DNA of 33,656 nucleotides, taken from the NCBI GenBank assembly GCA_902573115.1, contig CACGIM010000011.1:1-33656 (forward strand), read 5' to 3'. The notes beneath the pieces were generated by a model, which worked only from the letters and a program-made list of their open reading frames with translations, was not told the DNA's origin and made no database searches. Source of the DNA: an uncultured Candidatus Poseidoniales archaeon. Lineage in GTDB: Archaea; Thermoplasmatota; Poseidoniia; Poseidoniales; Thalassarchaeaceae. Below, one piece after another: positions 6,603 to 16,015 of this stretch. The translations under genes and the position numbers were made by a program. Each line of letters begins with the position of its first letter. The stretch's first letter is position 1.

Positions 6603-7037
6603 ATGGCAAGAGTGGTCGTTCATCTAGATTCAATGCCAAAAGACCGGTCCTTCGCAACGATTGTGAGGGATTATGAAGAAAGACTCAGTCTTATCGGAAT
6701 TAGCTTAAAGGCCCACGACACCACAAAAGATCCGAAAAACTACGAAAAAGAAATTACAAAACTCTCTGGTAAATTAGTGTTACTGGATGAAAAGGGTAAG
6801 ACGATGACTAGTCTGCAATTGGCACGGTGGCTGGAATCTACACAACTCGGGAGAGAGACTACTCATATTGCAATAGGGCCACATAATGGATTTTCAGAGC
6901 GAGCCAAGGAATCAGCAGATTCCCTGATTAGACTGTCATCTCTAACCCTAACACATGAATTTTCAGCAGCATTGCTGATGGAACAACTTTACAGAGCTTC
7001 AGAAATAATCAGAGGGTCACCGTATCACAGAGTCTGA
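6603..7037 (+). CDS. rlmH: 23S rRNA (pseudouridine1915-N3)-methyltransferase RlmH-like (SPOUT)
   Basis: 144 aa; LVLLDEKGKTMTSLQLARWL, IAIGPHNGFSE, LSSLTLTHEFSAALLMEQLYRASEIIRGSPYHRV match the RlmH C-terminal SPOUT signature. Confidence 0.9.
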   Translation: MARVVVHLDSMPKDRSFATIVRDYEERLSLIGISLKAHDTTKDPKNYEKEITKLSGKLVLLDEKGKTMTSLQLARWLESTQLGRETTHIAIGPHNGFSERAKESADSLIRLSSLTLTHEFSAALLMEQLYRASEIIRGSPYHRV

Positions 7038-7073
7038 GGCTCTAGTATGATACTAGAATCGCTCTGTGATACG
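7021..7073. repeat. Nested inverted repeat overlapping the rlmH stop codon
   Basis: Outer arms cgtatcacagag (7021-7032) and ctctgtgatacg (7062-7073), 12 bp perfect. Inner arms tctagtat (7041-7048) and atactaga (7050-7057), 8 bp perfect, 1-nt centre. rlmH stop is at 7035-7037. Confidence 0.9.
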
Positions 7074-7152
7074 AATCATGATTTTATTAGGAATCGATTC
7101 ATAAGCATTTGAACATGCCAACAACCCTAGCCAGCGCTGGGATGAGGATTCT

Positions 7153-10100
7153 ATGAGTGAACATGAAGGAAGAAAGGAAAGTAAGAGGGTTTTGCCCGCG
7201 ATCACATTGGTCACTTTGATGATATTGAGCACACAGCTCATGATTTTCGAAAAACCCAGCGTTTCTGTTGAGGAAGAGGAAAGCATTGAGCCTTCAAAGA
7301 GAACTGCATATCCCCAAATGGGGCAGGTCTCCGCGCCTGTCCAAGGAGACGGGCAGTATCAACCGGCTACTACAAACCCATTCCAAAACCCGGCATTCAG
7401 CCCGTTTTACAATGATGCTGCTTCCATCTATGGCAAGGTCTCCGACCTTTCTGCCTTGGGTTTAGACCCCAGCTACGGCTTCTTTCTTGAGGAGACAAAC
7501 ACCGATGATCACGATAACGACGGGATAAACGACCTTGACGACCTTGACGACGATAACGACGGGATAAACGACCTAATCGAAAGGTTTGACGGATGCTATG
7601 GGACTGACCCATATGATCACGACAACGACGGCATTCAGGATGAATTCGACTGGGACGATGACAACGACGGAATCCTGGAGGGCCCAATAGACTATGATCA
7701 GGGAAACGATCCATGGAACGTCACATCTGACAGGCATGTCGATCCAAGTATGATTCATCCATGGACCGGAGGACCGGTAGGTTTTGGCTATCTAGTGGAT
7801 CAAAATCCAATGGACCACGATAACGATGGAATCACCGATGAGGACATAGATGGCTCGGGAAGAGGATCATATGACGAGGACGATGACAACGACGGTAGAA
7901 TTGATCAATTCATATGGCCATGTGACTTCGATTCGGATGGAATACAGGACTATTTTGACGACGATGATGATGGTGACGGAGTACTCGACATCAATGACGT
8001 CCACCCTTGGGACTCCACCCAGACCTCACAGATTTCCACGGTCCAAGGCATACTCTGGGATACTGCCGTAAGGTGGAATGCCACTGACTATTCGCAATAT
8101 GTCGACGGACTTGATTACGTTGAGCTCCACGCTCTGGAGCACCCAAGAGAGCAGAGCTTCACTGAAATTTTCGATGGGGACCTTGACGGTGATGGAATAC
8201 CAAATTTCCTTGATCCGGACAATGACAATGACGGATCACCAGACTCTTCGGATACTGATGACGATAATGATGGCCTAGCAGACATGTATGATGTGGATGA
8301 TGACAATGACGGAATTCCTGATGAATGCCGACAGCTAGATACTAATTCTGATGGTCAGGGGGACTATCCCCTCGAGGCATTTAATGGGTTTTCAGTGGCT
8401 ATAGAGACTCCGGGTGAAGATTGTGAGATAGACTACGACGGGGATCTGGACGATGATCGGTTCAGAGCCATCGATGCAGACTACGATATGGTTTGGGATT
8501 GGCTAGATACTGATATGGGTGGAACCGAGAGACCCGACAATCCAGTCTGGGAAGCTACACCATGGGACTTAGATAATGATGGCTTGAAGAATGAGGACGA
8601 CCCATACCCGCTCAATGACTCGGCTGAGGTAGCCTCGTGGGACTGTGCCACATTGGAGAACCCAAACCCGCAGAACCCAAGCGATAATTGTATTCTCTGG
8701 AGAACTTCCTACACCGGTTTCAACGACTGGGACGGTGACGGGGTAAACAATTGGGTTGATGTCGATGATGATAACGATGGTATTCTCGACTGGTTGGACA
8801 TCGATCCCGACTGCGATTTGGATAATGATGCTTATCTCCACGAACTTAATGGTTCCATGTTCAGGGATGACGGGCCAAACGATATCGACACCGATGTGGA
8901 TGGGGACGGGCTGCAGAACGATGAGGACTGGGACGACGACAACGACGGAATAAACGACTTCTTCGACCCGGATGATGGTAACTGTGGAATTGTGGATTCT
9001 GACAATACTGACAATTTCTTTGGAAATAGCTGGCCTCAATCAGACGGTGATGCTATAGACGGCTCCGAGGATAGTGCGGCTTATGCTGCAGTAGACAACT
9101 ATTACTGGAATATAACCTGGGGCTTCAATCCGTTCAACTTTGATAATAGCTTCATGCTAGACTACAACGGATACGATGACAGCTCATTTCCACCGACAGA
9201 GGGAACCATCCCAGAGATGTACTGGTTCCTAATGATGAAGTGGAGTCCGTACAATGGAGACAATTTCTTCGATATCGACACAGATGGAGACTCACTAGTA
9301 AACGGAATCGACATAGATCAGGACGGGGATGGCCTTCCAGACTGGTGGGACCAAGACGAGGGTAACGATGGTATCTTGGATGTAGATGATGTAAAGATGG
9401 GCGGGTCTCTAGATCGAAACTCTTGTGGAACTATAATATTCAGTCCTATTCAAGAGAGGTGGTGCGGATTACAGTATGCATTCCTATTCAAAGTACCACT
9501 CTTGACGCCTACCCAAACGGGAGGTAACGTGTTTTCGGTCCCTTACAGCACTCGTCCTGATCCAGAATGGGATGATGGCGCATATGACGGATCCAACCAT
9601 CCAAATGGCGATTTTAGTTGCATATCTAACTGCTACTGGTTTACTTTCGATCCAACTAGCAATCCAACCCCGTCATCGGCAGTTAGCTATCAAGAAATGA
9701 GAAACAACAGAGATCTCTGGATAACTTACATTGGGATCGGACAGAATGGTGGAAACCTTTTCCAATGGACCTCAGATGTGAACAACAACTTCTTCCCTGA
9801 CGAAATTGGCGACTTGTTAAATGATGATGTAGATCCAGATATTGACTGTGGGCAACCGATTCCGGACTTCTCCTGGACTCCCACCTGCATGTTCAACAAT
9901 ACCAATGACTTGGATGATGATTGGGATATTGTTTACGATCACTTCGATGTCGACGACAACAACAATGGGGTCTGGGACTTTCTTGAAGTGGACTCTAATA
10001 GTGACTTAGACGATGATGACCCCGACTCCTTCAATCCTCCAGTGAACGAGCCGTTCTACTTCGTGGGTGACAATTGCGAGGATGCAGATGATGATGGTCT

Positions 10101-13100
10101 GGACACAGATCCTGATGGAGACGGAATTTATCAATCAGTATGGGACAAAGGAGTCCTGGGACAGGCCCTTCTTTTCCCGGAATATTACGATGTCGACAAT
10201 GACAATGATGGGGTCCCGGATGGGGAAGACCCAGACGATGACAACAATGGAGTCTCAGATGCAGCTCAGGAACTTTTCCCTGGATGCTTCACAGGAGAGG
10301 AGCAGAGCACTTGGGACCACGACAATGATGGGATAGTGAACTGGGCGGATGATGATTGGGATGGAGACGGAATCCCCAACTCTCTAGAGCTCCAGAACCT
10401 CGTAGATCACCAGGGAACTGCAGACGCTTTCGACGATGTGTGTTGCCTCAACTTCCCCGTAGCCCCATGGGACCATGACAACGATGGAATCAGAGACGAC
10501 ATAGATGAAGACGACGATTACGATGGCATGAAGGATGAGGACGAGGTGATGCTTTGGCCTTCGAGGTTTGGAATGGAGTCGACCAATCCATGGGATCACG
10601 ACGACTTTGGAGGAGGGGTCGGCATAGCAAATCCAACAAACAACTCGACTGGACCAGACTACTTCGACGTCGACGATGACAATGACGGTAGGGAGGATCT
10701 CGACTGGAACAATCCATCACTGGGAAGCTGGTCAATTCCTTCCAACAAGACTGAGGAATCTTCCGGTTCTAGCTCCGATTGGGACTCTGATAATAACGGG
10801 ATATTAGACGACGATGACAAAATTCCGACTAGGATTACACTATCCACCGAATCAATATTATGGCTGGACGAAAACAGACCTTCAATTTTCAATGGAACTG
10901 TTTTCTGGCTAGACGATACAGGCTTTGTCCCCGCCCCCGACATACCAGTCCAGGTACATATTCGCTACATTGAAAATGGCACCTCAGTAATTGAGACGAT
11001 AGACGTCCTGACTGATTCCAATGGAGATTACGTCGTCGGCCAATTCCTATTCCCAGAGGATATCCAGGTTGGTCCCAATACAACGTACGAGGTTTACTCT
11101 GAGGTTACTGAGATGTTCGTCCACGACTACAGCTCGACTCTTGAAGACACAGATGGGGATGGTCTGGGTGACACTGGCTTCCCGGTTGAAGTCAGAGCCA
11201 ATACGACAATAGGATTCGTGTCAGGTCAAAGATTCAGAGCTGACGAACAACCCTTGAAGCTCGACTTCAAGGTACACTACACAGCCGATTATAACAGAGG
11301 AATATTCGACAACAGACTAGCTTTTGCGCCAGTTTCTTTCACAATTAGCGACTCTGGAACTCAATTTGGGAACATCACTCACCCTACTGTTTACGACGGT
11401 TATGGAAACGGTTACAGAGCTGACTCTGGCGGTTGGGTTTCATTGGCCTATAACCAATCATTGGATCGGTGGGAGCAAGTGCAGTGGAACTCACTACTAA
11501 ACAACGGCGAGGGGATTCCAACTGGGGGGTATGAGGAGATAACTTGGAACCCCTGCTCTTCGAATAATCCAATTGGATCTCATTCTATCCTCGGTACTTA
11601 TGAATACAGAAATACAACACTCCCAGTTGGTGATTACAGCTTCATCGGGTTCTCCAGACCTGATCTCGGTGGATGCTTAGACGACGCATATGAATGGCCA
11701 TGGGCCCATCTAGAGGGCTCCAAGACTGACACATTCTACATCAGAGCCATGCATAGGATGTACGTAGAGGCGGAAATGTACGTTTCATCATTTAGACCCG
11801 TCTACTTCTGGGATGCTACACAGTTCACTGGCTCTTCCTTCGGAGCCTGGAGGGCATTGTTCCACGCCCCTTCTCTGGTGAATGCGGGAACAACTTTCTC
11901 GGATGCAAGCCTAGGCAAGTCGTATCCGATCCTATGGGACGGGACTCCGTCAGGGTTGAACGGTATAGCAGGCGGCGCTCTTGCAGGGTTCCTCTCCTCT
12001 AACGGTACGCATTGGACAATCACCATGCAGAATGGTGCTGACTTCGACTCGCCTCCATGTGGCCCAGTCGATCCGTTGGTTCCGAACAGTGAGGTGAGGT
12101 GTGAAATAGTCCCAGAGATGTTCACTGGAGAGACCATCAGAGTAGTCGGAAACGTGTGGAATCGAACCTTCGTACCTTGGACTCAAGACGCGATCGCCCT
12201 CCAAATGGATATCGATAACAACGGTGTCTTTTCTGGTAGCCTCGAGACGGCATATTCCAGAAGACCAAACATGGTCGAGGGACTAGCAACATTCGACTAC
12301 AACTGGACATGGTTCTCCCAGTACCCAGCAGGAACATTTGGAGTAAAGGCCGACTTCACCTTGTCTGACTACTACTTCACAGGAGAGCAAGAACAGGTAC
12401 TCGCTGCCACAGGAGCATATGGGAACGTTACCGTCATTGGAACTACTGACTTCCAGTTGAACTCCCTTCCACGCCTTTACAGGGGCCAGAACACCACTGT
12501 CGAAGCCCGTCTTATCGACAACGCATTCCAACCTGTGCGAGAAGTCCCCGTAAACTGGACATGGTCAGGGGATCTGACCAGCGGAGTGGCAATAACTGAC
12601 AACAATGGTGTTTTCAAGGTCAATCTGACAGACATAGACACACTCGGAAACTTCTCACTAGGATTTACCTACATGGGAGACAGTCTTAGACAAGGGAACT
12701 CAGCCGAAGTCAGCCTATGGGTAGTTTCAAGGACATACATCAGCCTAAGTAGTGCTGGACCCAACGTTGCCTATAACGGGGATGATTGGCGGCTTTCTGC
12801 GGTTGTTCTTGATGACAACAAGACTCCATTTGAGAAAGATGTCGGTGGCGCTGTACTCACTACTTTGGGCGAGGACATGGGTTGTGCTCCAATCCAAAAT
12901 CAAGATGGATATGACCTAGGAGGAAACGTGACAATAATCTTCGAGGGTGTAGATTTCGAGGATAGGACTCACAGGCAAATAGTGAATAGGACATGCCCCA
13001 AGGATGGGAAGATTGACTTCAAAACTACCCTAGATCCCCAGCTCTTGAAAGACGACCCCTTCTCGTACTTGCCTGACGGATTTGGCCCGGTCAATGTTAT

Positions 13101-15076
13101 CATTAGATTCGAGGAAAATCTCCCCCACGAAGGATGCGGGCCAGTGACTTCAGAGATGCTTACTACATCCGGTGCGTGGGACCCATGTGCCACCATCCTT
13201 AACAGCGACCACTTTAGGAAGGTCCTGCAATTCCAAGTGGATGGGTTCAGTCTCATTGGCAACACCAAGCTGGATGTCGATCAGCAGATAGTCTACACAT
13301 CTGAGATTGACCCTGATACTGGACTTATTCTGGAGAAGCCGATGATTGTCACCGGTCAACTAACAGACGAGCTTGGTGGAAACCTTTCCAGTAGACAAAT
13401 CCGAGTTACATATGAGATGGGATCGATGATCTTTGATCCAATCGAAAACAGAATGAAGTTCCGGGCAGGAGACGATGGTATTGGAGCATGCATCCCCGGA
13501 GCAACAGATGAAAACGGACTATTCGAAATAAACTGCCCCATTTCGGGCGTGGACGCTGGAACTGCCAAGGTCAATGTTGAATACAACGCTTGGGACACTC
13601 TCAACAATGACAGGTACAGATATAAGAATAAGACACAGGTAATGTTCTTCCCTGTCTTTTCTAACTCAACCCTAGAGGTATCAGAGGTCGGCCCATTCAG
13701 GTCTGACTACCTAACTTACACTTTCCCCAATGGCTCCGACTTCCAGGTACTCTATCTCAAGGAGGCCTTCCACATCAATGCCAAGCTCTCCCAGTCCAAT
13801 GGGAAGCCAGTGGGGGGGGAAGTGCGTCAACATATATCTAGACCCAGATGTGAACACTCGACCTATCGCTACAGCATTCACAGCAGACGGAACAGGGCAA
13901 TTCATTTGGTACTCAGCCGATCCCGATGACAATCCTAGCAGACGGGGCGTCGAACCTAGTGGAAACAAACTCGAGGGGTTCAGAACAATAAGGGTAGCAT
14001 ACGAACCGGAGAAGTACATACCCGGAGGATGCGACTATGAGGCACTAGAGCCTAATCCAGTACTAAACAGCTCTTTCATGGATGTTGAAGTTCTGGTTAG
14101 AAGTAAAGTCGACATCTTACTGAAAGAGCACTGGGCGAGCCCAACGGGATATCTGGAAGGAGATATCATCGAGGGAGAGGTTGCTATTCTAAGGGACAGA
14201 CTAGACCTTACAGTGGAGGGTCAGAGAGTGGAGTTCCATAGACAGTTCTGGAACGGTTCAGGGTGGCAGACGGAAAGAGTGGAGATCCTGATTACTAATG
14301 AGAGAGGTTCTGCAAACTTCTCTTTCCCATACACAGGAGAAGAAATACCGGGCCATCCAGAGTGGAGCGCGCCTGATGGGAGATGGAGGGTCCTAGTCCA
14401 CTTCGAGTCTGCTGATGAGAATCAGCCTTATTTCGTGGAACAATGGCTGAACAGCACACCTTCGATATCTCAAGGAAATCCCGAAATTGACGCCAAAGCA
14501 AGCTTCCTAACAACTCAAGTTATCGTTATCTCAGGAATCGCACTCTCGGCCATGGTCTTGGTGGGGACAATCATGTACAACAACTACCGAGAACGAAGGA
14601 AAGTGGAGGTTCTGAGAGGAATTTTAACAGACGCTCTAATGTCACTGAAGGCCTCGAATAATTACATCGAGGCTATTTTCTCTTGCTATAAGGACCTCAT
14701 AAAGTACTTCAGAATGAGAGGGGCTATGAAAAAGGTCTTTGAGACCACCAGAGAGTTTGAGGATGTTATCAACAAGATGCTTGGAGGAATTGTTCCTCCC
14801 GAGGAGATCGATGGTTTCTTTACGATTTTTGAAGAGGCTAGGTATTCAGACCATGATATCGGCTCCGAGGAGAGGGACAGGGCCATACAGATTTTCCAAT
14901 CTATGATTGGGAGAATGAACAGGGCGCTGGGAGAGAGTATGCTATCCAGAACATCCTCAACAGAATCCTCCCTCTACGGACCATCGGTCAAAGCAGGACA
15001 GTTCGTTGATGCGGAGGGCCAGGTTAGGTTTGCTGGGGTCGACGACTCAGTAGACAAAGACGGATTCAAGATATAG
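7153..15076 (+). CDS. Giant cell-surface protein: N-terminal hydrophobic segment, TSP3-like Asp-rich repeats, Ig-like/beta domains, one C-terminal TM helix, cytosolic helical tail; apparent frameshift at 13812-13819
   Basis: ORF 7153-13929 (2258 aa) is followed in another frame by ORF 13730-15076 that continues the same protein style. Reading one G fewer in the G8 tract gives ...NGKPVGGKCVNIYLDPDVNTRPIATAFTADGTGQFIWYSADPDD..., about 2640 aa in total. Confidence 0.8.
7501..10830 (+). repeat. TSP type-3-like calcium-binding repeat region within the giant protein
   Basis: Repeated D(H/D)DNDGI(x)D..DD.DDDNDG motifs. The DNA also contains a 25-bp perfect direct repeat acgataacgacgggataaacgacct at 7511-7535 and 7550-7574. 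Confidence 0.9.
14519..14960 (+). other. C-terminal TM helix plus cytosolic helical domain (DUF4129-like) of the giant protein
   Basis: VIVISGIALSAMVLVGTIMYNNYRERRK (TM plus positive-inside), then LMSLKASNNYIEAIFSCYKDLIKYFRMRGAMKKVFETTREFEDVINKML. Confidence 0.5.
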
Positions 15077-15099
15077 CTATGCCAATATCGCACTTGAAA

Positions 15100-15114
15100 C
15101 GCCCCTACGGGGCG
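15100..15114 (+). terminator. GC-rich hairpin between the giant gene and the ribosomal operon (terminator or leader element)
   Basis: cgcccc-tac-ggggcg: 6-bp perfect GC stem, 3-nt loop, 24 nt after the giant-gene stop. No strong downstream T run, so its role is uncertain. Confidence 0.4.
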
Positions 15115-15174
15115 CCCGCAGGATTCATAACACCGACTTTGGTGGCCGCGCTACCACATATGGGGGCGAAAGCT

Positions 15175-15540
15175 ATGGGCAAGCTAGAAAGAAAGACCAA
15201 TTCGTCGCTAGTAGCCCTCATAGGGGAGCTAAAGGACCACAGTAGGTCTACAGGATCCTCCATCTGGAGGGACACCGCATCTAGGCTGGAATCAAGTAGG
15301 AAGAATTGGGCTGAACCAAACCTGAGTCACATCTCAAGGCACTCACAGGAAAAGGAGACAGTTCTGGTCCCAGGGAAGGTCCTTGGAAGCGGGGAAATTA
15401 ACGGAAAGCAGACCGTCGCCGCATTCAGCTTCAGCGATGTGGCTAAGAACAAAATTGCGGCTTCAGGTGGCAGAACGCTCAGTATCAGAGAACTTATGGA
15501 AGAAAACCCGAAAGGAAAGGGGGTGAGGATACTTGTCTGA
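15175..15540 (+). CDS. rpl18e: Ribosomal protein L18e
   Basis: MGKLERKTNSSLVALIGELKDHSRSTGSSIWRDTASRLESSRKNWAEPNLSHISR...VLVPGKVLGSGEINGKQTVAAFSFSDVAKNKI; order L18e-L13-S9-RpoN is the conserved archaeal operon. Start moved to 15175. Confidence 0.92.
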   Translation: MGKLERKTNSSLVALIGELKDHSRSTGSSIWRDTASRLESSRKNWAEPNLSHISRHSQEKETVLVPGKVLGSGEINGKQTVAAFSFSDVAKNKIAASGGRTLSIRELMEENPKGKGVRILV

Positions 15541-16015
15541 GCCAACTAAAGTCTACGACGCTTCAGGAAAGATACTAGGAAGACTTGCAAGCCAAGTCGC
15601 GAAAGAGATGATATCTGCAAGAAAGTCTGGTAGCCAACAGAGAGTTATAATCATAAACGCTGAAGGTGCTATAGTCTCGGGGCCGAAATCCAAGGTCTTC
15701 AAGGATTATAGAGCGAAATACAATCTAAATCATGCTAGAAAGGGGCCATTTTTCCCGAGAATGCCTGATAAGATCATCAAAAGAACGGTCAGAGGAATGC
15801 TACCTTACCAGAAAAACAGCAGTGGAAGAGGGGCATTAAAGGATTTGAGAGTAATGATTGGGACGCCTGCAAACCTCTCTGGGGAAGAGCTCCCAGAAGA
15901 CCACCAGTGGGGGGATACTGGCAATATAGACCGATCCCCTCCGAACAAGTTCGTTAGACTAGGGGACATAAGCTCCCACTTAGGCGTGGACGCTTCAAGA
16001 TGGGGTGGTGAATAA
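15533..16015 (+). CDS. rpl13: Ribosomal protein L13
   Basis: KVYDASGKILGRLASQVAKEM...INAEGAIVSGPKSKVFKDY...GPFFPRMPDKIIKRTVRGMLPYQKNSSGRGALKDLRV; TTG start overlapping the L18e stop. Confidence 0.95.
   Translation: MSEPTKVYDASGKILGRLASQVAKEMISARKSGSQQRVIIINAEGAIVSGPKSKVFKDYRAKYNLNHARKGPFFPRMPDKIIKRTVRGMLPYQKNSSGRGALKDLRVMIGTPANLSGEELPEDHQWGDTGNIDRSPPNKFVRLGDISSHLGVDASRWGGE

Follow-up and report, generated by a model that had tools for sequence, protein, structure and literature searches.

A conserved tandem TGATAC element in the likely promoter of a giant secreted-protein gene of Candidatus Poseidoniales

We analyzed a window of 33,656 nucleotides (contig CACGIM010000011.1) from a member of Candidatus Poseidoniales (Marine Group II), archaea that are very abundant and uncultured. 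The genome that contains the window (G000) is a 0.98-Mb draft with 63% completeness, and most of the genomes used for comparison are also incomplete drafts. The region of interest is the junction between the methyltransferase gene rlmH and a giant secreted-protein gene, designated family A. All of its repeats were confirmed at the coordinates reported in an earlier, sequence-only reading of this DNA. The features of the junction are the following:

6603-7037, plus strand: rlmH, SPOUT methyltransferase of 144 aa ending in PYHRV-stop (Pfam SPOUT_MTase, E 1.9e-27)
7021-7073, plus strand: nested inverted repeat, with outer and inner arms around the end of rlmH
7021-7032 and 7062-7073: outer arms CGTATCACAGAG and CTCTGTGATACG, 12 bp, perfect
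7041-7048 and 7050-7057: inner arms TCTAGTAT and ATACTAGA, 8 bp, with a 1-nt spacer
7048-7053, plus strand: TGATAC copy 1, distal box of a putative tandem operator, from conservation
7067-7072, plus strand: TGATAC copy 2, proximal box, from conservation; outer part of the right arm
7074-7083: first palindrome, AATCATGATT
7090-7097, plus strand: probable BRE region, adjoining the TATA-like box on its 5' side and holding most of the second palindrome
7091-7100: second palindrome, GAATCGATTC
7098-7104, plus strand: TATA-like box TTCATAA, 25 bp past copy 2
7125-7152, plus strand: predicted short 5' leader, with an SD-like GAGG (7144-7147) and the third palindrome
7131-7140: third palindrome, CCAGCGCTGG, 12 nt 5' of the ATG at 7153
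7153-15076, plus strand: giant secreted-protein gene, family A, ~2640 aa, with an orthologue in genome G026

The giant gene appears in the window as two open reading frames (7153-13929 and 13730-15076), its frame being broken near 13816, where eight G occur in a row. The two pieces are 98% identical to the intact 2640-aa G026 orthologue, with 98.6% identity for the second, C-terminal piece, and the break is probably a sequencing or assembly slip. Family A proteins are conserved at ~2640-2700 aa and were found in all 18 genera and in 73 of the 79 genomes searched; they have a hydrophobic N-terminus with a signal region of the '...STQMYSFQDFE' type and weak matches to Big_1 and DUF4129. In the window, the giant gene lies directly 5' of rpl18e-rpl13 (15079-16015), encoding ribosomal proteins L18e and L13. 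The distant genome G037 has the same order (271-273 kb), and there the L18e and L13 genes follow ~0.7 kb past the giant gene end; from this arrangement, co-transcription of the giant gene with the ribosomal operon is possible.

Inside and across the palindromes runs the layout TGATAC-N13-TGATAC, 25 bp, TTCATAA, and then the giant-gene ATG at 7153. The segment at 7090-7097 would serve as the BRE; several relatives have GGAATCCATT there, from which the palindrome GAATCGATTC is one base away (C to G). The short leader at 7125-7152 is predicted because of the position of the TATA-like box.

The element is conserved, with fixed spacing and position, across the order. We compared 57 giant-gene promoters from 16 genera of both Candidatus Poseidoniales families; the window belongs to the first, Thalassarchaeaceae, and the second (f2) presumably corresponds to Poseidoniaceae. 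The orthologues were found mostly by protein similarity, and the composite TGATAY-N13/14-TGATAY-N24/25-TATA-like was present in 54 of the 57 promoters, a set in which seven promoters (g4, g6, g8, and g18) came from pattern-scan loci and are not motif-independent picks. The boxes of these 54 promoters recur with a period of 19 bp, or of 20 bp in the three genera with a 14-bp spacer (g9, g10, and f2-g13). A TATA-like box stands 24-25 bp after box 2 in every one of the 54 box-bearing promoters, while its sequence differs by genus (TTSATAA, TTGATAT, TTSAAAT, and TTTGAAA). In g3 and g5 (L197 and L198), the spacer between the boxes contains an inverted-type GTATC, and G070 has two sites with such a spacer 1.4 kb apart on one contig.

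Within the genus of the window, the rlmH-giant gene junction was readable at 25 loci, and 22 of them carry the boxes. The distance from the rlmH stop codon to box 1 varies between 13 and 46 bp at these loci, while both internal distances are fixed, save for one locus with 24 rather than 25 bp. In some other genera (L066, L109, and L133), the TGA stop of rlmH doubles as the TGA that opens box 1, a true overlap of coding and regulatory sequence. The TGATAC boxes are absent from three genomes of the same genus, G015, G020, and G024, of which G015 and G020 clearly retain the giant gene; on these sequences, the site appears to be dispensable in some lineages. The giant-gene promoters of G015 (L027) and G024 (L025) have GTACTTTTTGTAGTAC in place of the boxes, abutting the TATA-like box (TATTGATAA). 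It looks like a replaced operator in both genomes, which suggests regulatory turnover.

The element is also specific and nearly single-copy. An exact scan for the composite in 84,980 genomes returned 99 stretches, 80 of them with titles shown. Among these 80, 61 belong to Marine Group II, and all 61 precede a gene of family A (55) or of a second large secreted-protein family, B (6). The other 19 come from scattered taxa with no consistent gene, and they fit the ~15 chance matches expected under an estimate that assumes equal base frequencies. Of the 28 genomes of the genus, 22 contain the N13 pair, once in each and always at the rlmH-giant gene junction. In G037, a single contig of 2.0 Mb, a flexible form of the composite was found once, at the giant gene, and the reversed-pattern control gave no match; with one mismatch tolerated in the pair of boxes, two more sites appeared, one inside a gene and the other intergenic, in front of family B. 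TGATAC alone showed no general enrichment upstream of genes, and general promoter-motif discovery in G037 yielded no more than a slight A+T rise ~28 nt ahead of start codons. The element is restricted to a small gene set, families A and B only.

Family B comprises beta-helix/Big_7 proteins of ~1400 aa. In several f2 genomes, its promoters contain TGATAY pairs with a 13-bp spacer, placed 25 bp from TATTATA (spacing judged by eye), and sometimes two such pairs. Family B lacks a TGATAC pair in the genus of the window, where the gene is present, and in g4, g6, g8, and g9. The family B upstream regions (L369-L380) of most of the genus, g4, and g9 share another conserved core, CCCTAYGRTTAAAT, with no TGATAC pair.

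Based on these results, we consider it likely that the region acts as the giant surface-protein gene's promoter and that the TGATAC pair is an upstream activating site for a small regulon of the cell envelope. The sequence-only reading had proposed, as one possible role, that dimeric regulators of the surface gene use the palindromes as operators. It was right to place regulation of the giant gene here, but what is conserved as an operator is a direct repeat (TGATAC twice, 19-bp period) rather than the palindromes. We infer a tandem-binding activator because repeated boxes rigidly spaced upstream of BRE/TATA are the layout of an archaeal activator site, and archaeal activators typically bind upstream of these elements (PMC5512572). 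Tandem copies of a Poseidoniales DNA-binding protein would occupy the two boxes along a fixed face of the helix, and the bound factor would recruit or stabilize TBP/TFB on the suboptimal TATA/BRE. Such activation, from a start whose position is predicted, would switch on the giant gene and, in some lineages of the order, a single further large envelope gene. Going further, we tentatively suggest, as a possibility with somewhat less than even odds, that a dedicated order-wide envelope regulator of Poseidoniales, or a specialized initiation-factor partner, reads the tandem boxes rigidly phased to TATA and that its control of this regulon of two giant-surface-protein genes dates back to the ancestor of the order. 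So specific a cis-element could serve as bait for the regulator, and it offers a prediction on cell-envelope control.

The layout has parallels in characterized archaeal promoters. The upstream activating sites of Ptr2 and TFB-RF1 also lie upstream of a weak TATA/BRE and are proposed to act by TBP or TFB recruitment; Ptr2 sites are palindromic, as opposed to the direct-repeat boxes described here. The closest match in form is the EarA-dependent fla operon promoter of Methanococcus maripaludis, in which four 6-bp sites lie immediately upstream of the BRE (PMC5512572). Both systems have several 6-bp boxes just upstream of BRE/TATA and serve cell-surface genes, in that case a gene cluster of a euryarchaeon with one dedicated activator. 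They differ in the number of boxes (four there; two here, or two pairs in family B), in box sequence, in target (the archaellum there, a giant secreted protein here), and in the spacing, which here is rigid across the order. The repeated boxes with conserved phasing and the small related gene set are as in EarA-type promoters, and the TATA-like box at a conserved place is as in archaeal BRE/TATA promoters in general. The Sulfolobus ara-box likewise is a conserved box directly upstream of BRE/TATA whose factor was unidentified at the time, but it has another sequence and belongs to sugar-inducible metabolic genes of Crenarchaeota (PMC5512572). Searches of the openly licensed literature found no published description of the element and no paper joining Poseidoniales with promoters and transcription factors; TGATAC itself was encountered there only in a Sulfolobus metal-resistance paper. 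An mdRNA-Seq study of Marine Group II exists (PMC5069720).

The direction of regulation is not readable from a footprint, and tandem sites can also seed a repressor filament, so that the pair could instead be a repressor operator or the site of a nucleoid or architectural protein. We regard this as unlikely, though the least so of the alternatives. The boxes lie upstream of BRE/TATA in rigid phase with the TATA-like box, the usual place of archaeal activators, whereas the binding sites of repressors usually overlap with TATA/BRE or with the transcription start (PMC5512572).

A conserved hairpin in the leader, marked by the third palindrome (7131-7140) and controlling how the giant gene is translated, is rather improbable. 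Near the corresponding position, relatives do show short inverted repeats whose sequences differ, for example TACCCGAGGGTA and CTCTCCCCGAGAG; however, their folds are not clearly better than those of shuffled sequences (mean z -0.7), and the predicted pairing moves between species.

Much less probable is that the nested inverted repeat forms an RNA hairpin that terminates or stabilizes the rlmH mRNA, one of the roles raised in the sequence-only reading. No other inverted repeat in the window reaches the length of the 12-bp arm pair (spacers up to 60 bp considered), and the sequence is predicted to fold well as a single strand (z -4.2 for 141 nt and z -5.4 for the 64-nt core). This fold, however, is exceptional only in the window sequence, as the mean z of its relatives is -1.1. 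The left outer arm lies, as had been observed, in rlmH codons, those for the PYHR end of RlmH, and at the 22 same-genus loci with the element these codons vary freely (TAT/TAC and CAC/CAT) and without compensation, whereas the right arm retains TGATAC and box 2 is invariant. Even in the closest relative, G026, whose RlmH is 89% identical, the left arm reads CTTATCATAGGG and is broken, the right arm having stayed intact. Left arms pair with their own right arms at 8.9 of 12 positions and with those of other species at 8.7 of 12; 10 of 10,000 permutations reach the own-arm value, an excess that can be explained by shared ancestry, with close relatives sharing both arms. Neither the arm-swap nor the fold tests revealed covariation of the outer arms across the 22 loci, so that the arms are neither conserved nor covarying, the outcome that the earlier reading itself had named as counting against its proposal. 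In many other genera, the boxes remain without rlmH upstream, and the arm is absent where rlmH is not a neighbor. No T- or U-tract directly follows the stem (7073), an Rfam covariance-model search of the region gave no matches at E up to 1, and a scan for bacterial-type terminators found its sole terminator-like match at 7226, inside the giant gene. We conclude that the nested inverted repeat is a lineage-specific coincidence of the RlmH PYHR codons with the operator; the eye-catching hairpin is a by-product of a coding sequence meeting a conserved direct repeat.

A recombination site or mobile repeat, also suggested earlier and typically built of palindromes and inverted repeats, can be practically dismissed, given that the 300-bp region has no second match in the genome and the box pair occurs about once per genome, in the genus always at orthologous promoters.

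The three palindromes had been singled out as a notable cluster, a claim that weakened under simulation. The window holds 29 perfect palindromes of at least 10 bp, an ordinary density when set against the 28.9 of first-order Markov simulations, and three palindromes within 57 bp occurred in 10 of 300 simulated windows (3%). The statistical weight of the palindromes is modest, and they are not preserved in relatives. The first is retained only in G026, and the second is not kept as a palindrome because it is one base off the GAATCCATTC of the relatives. The palindromes are mostly chance and incidental to the promoter.
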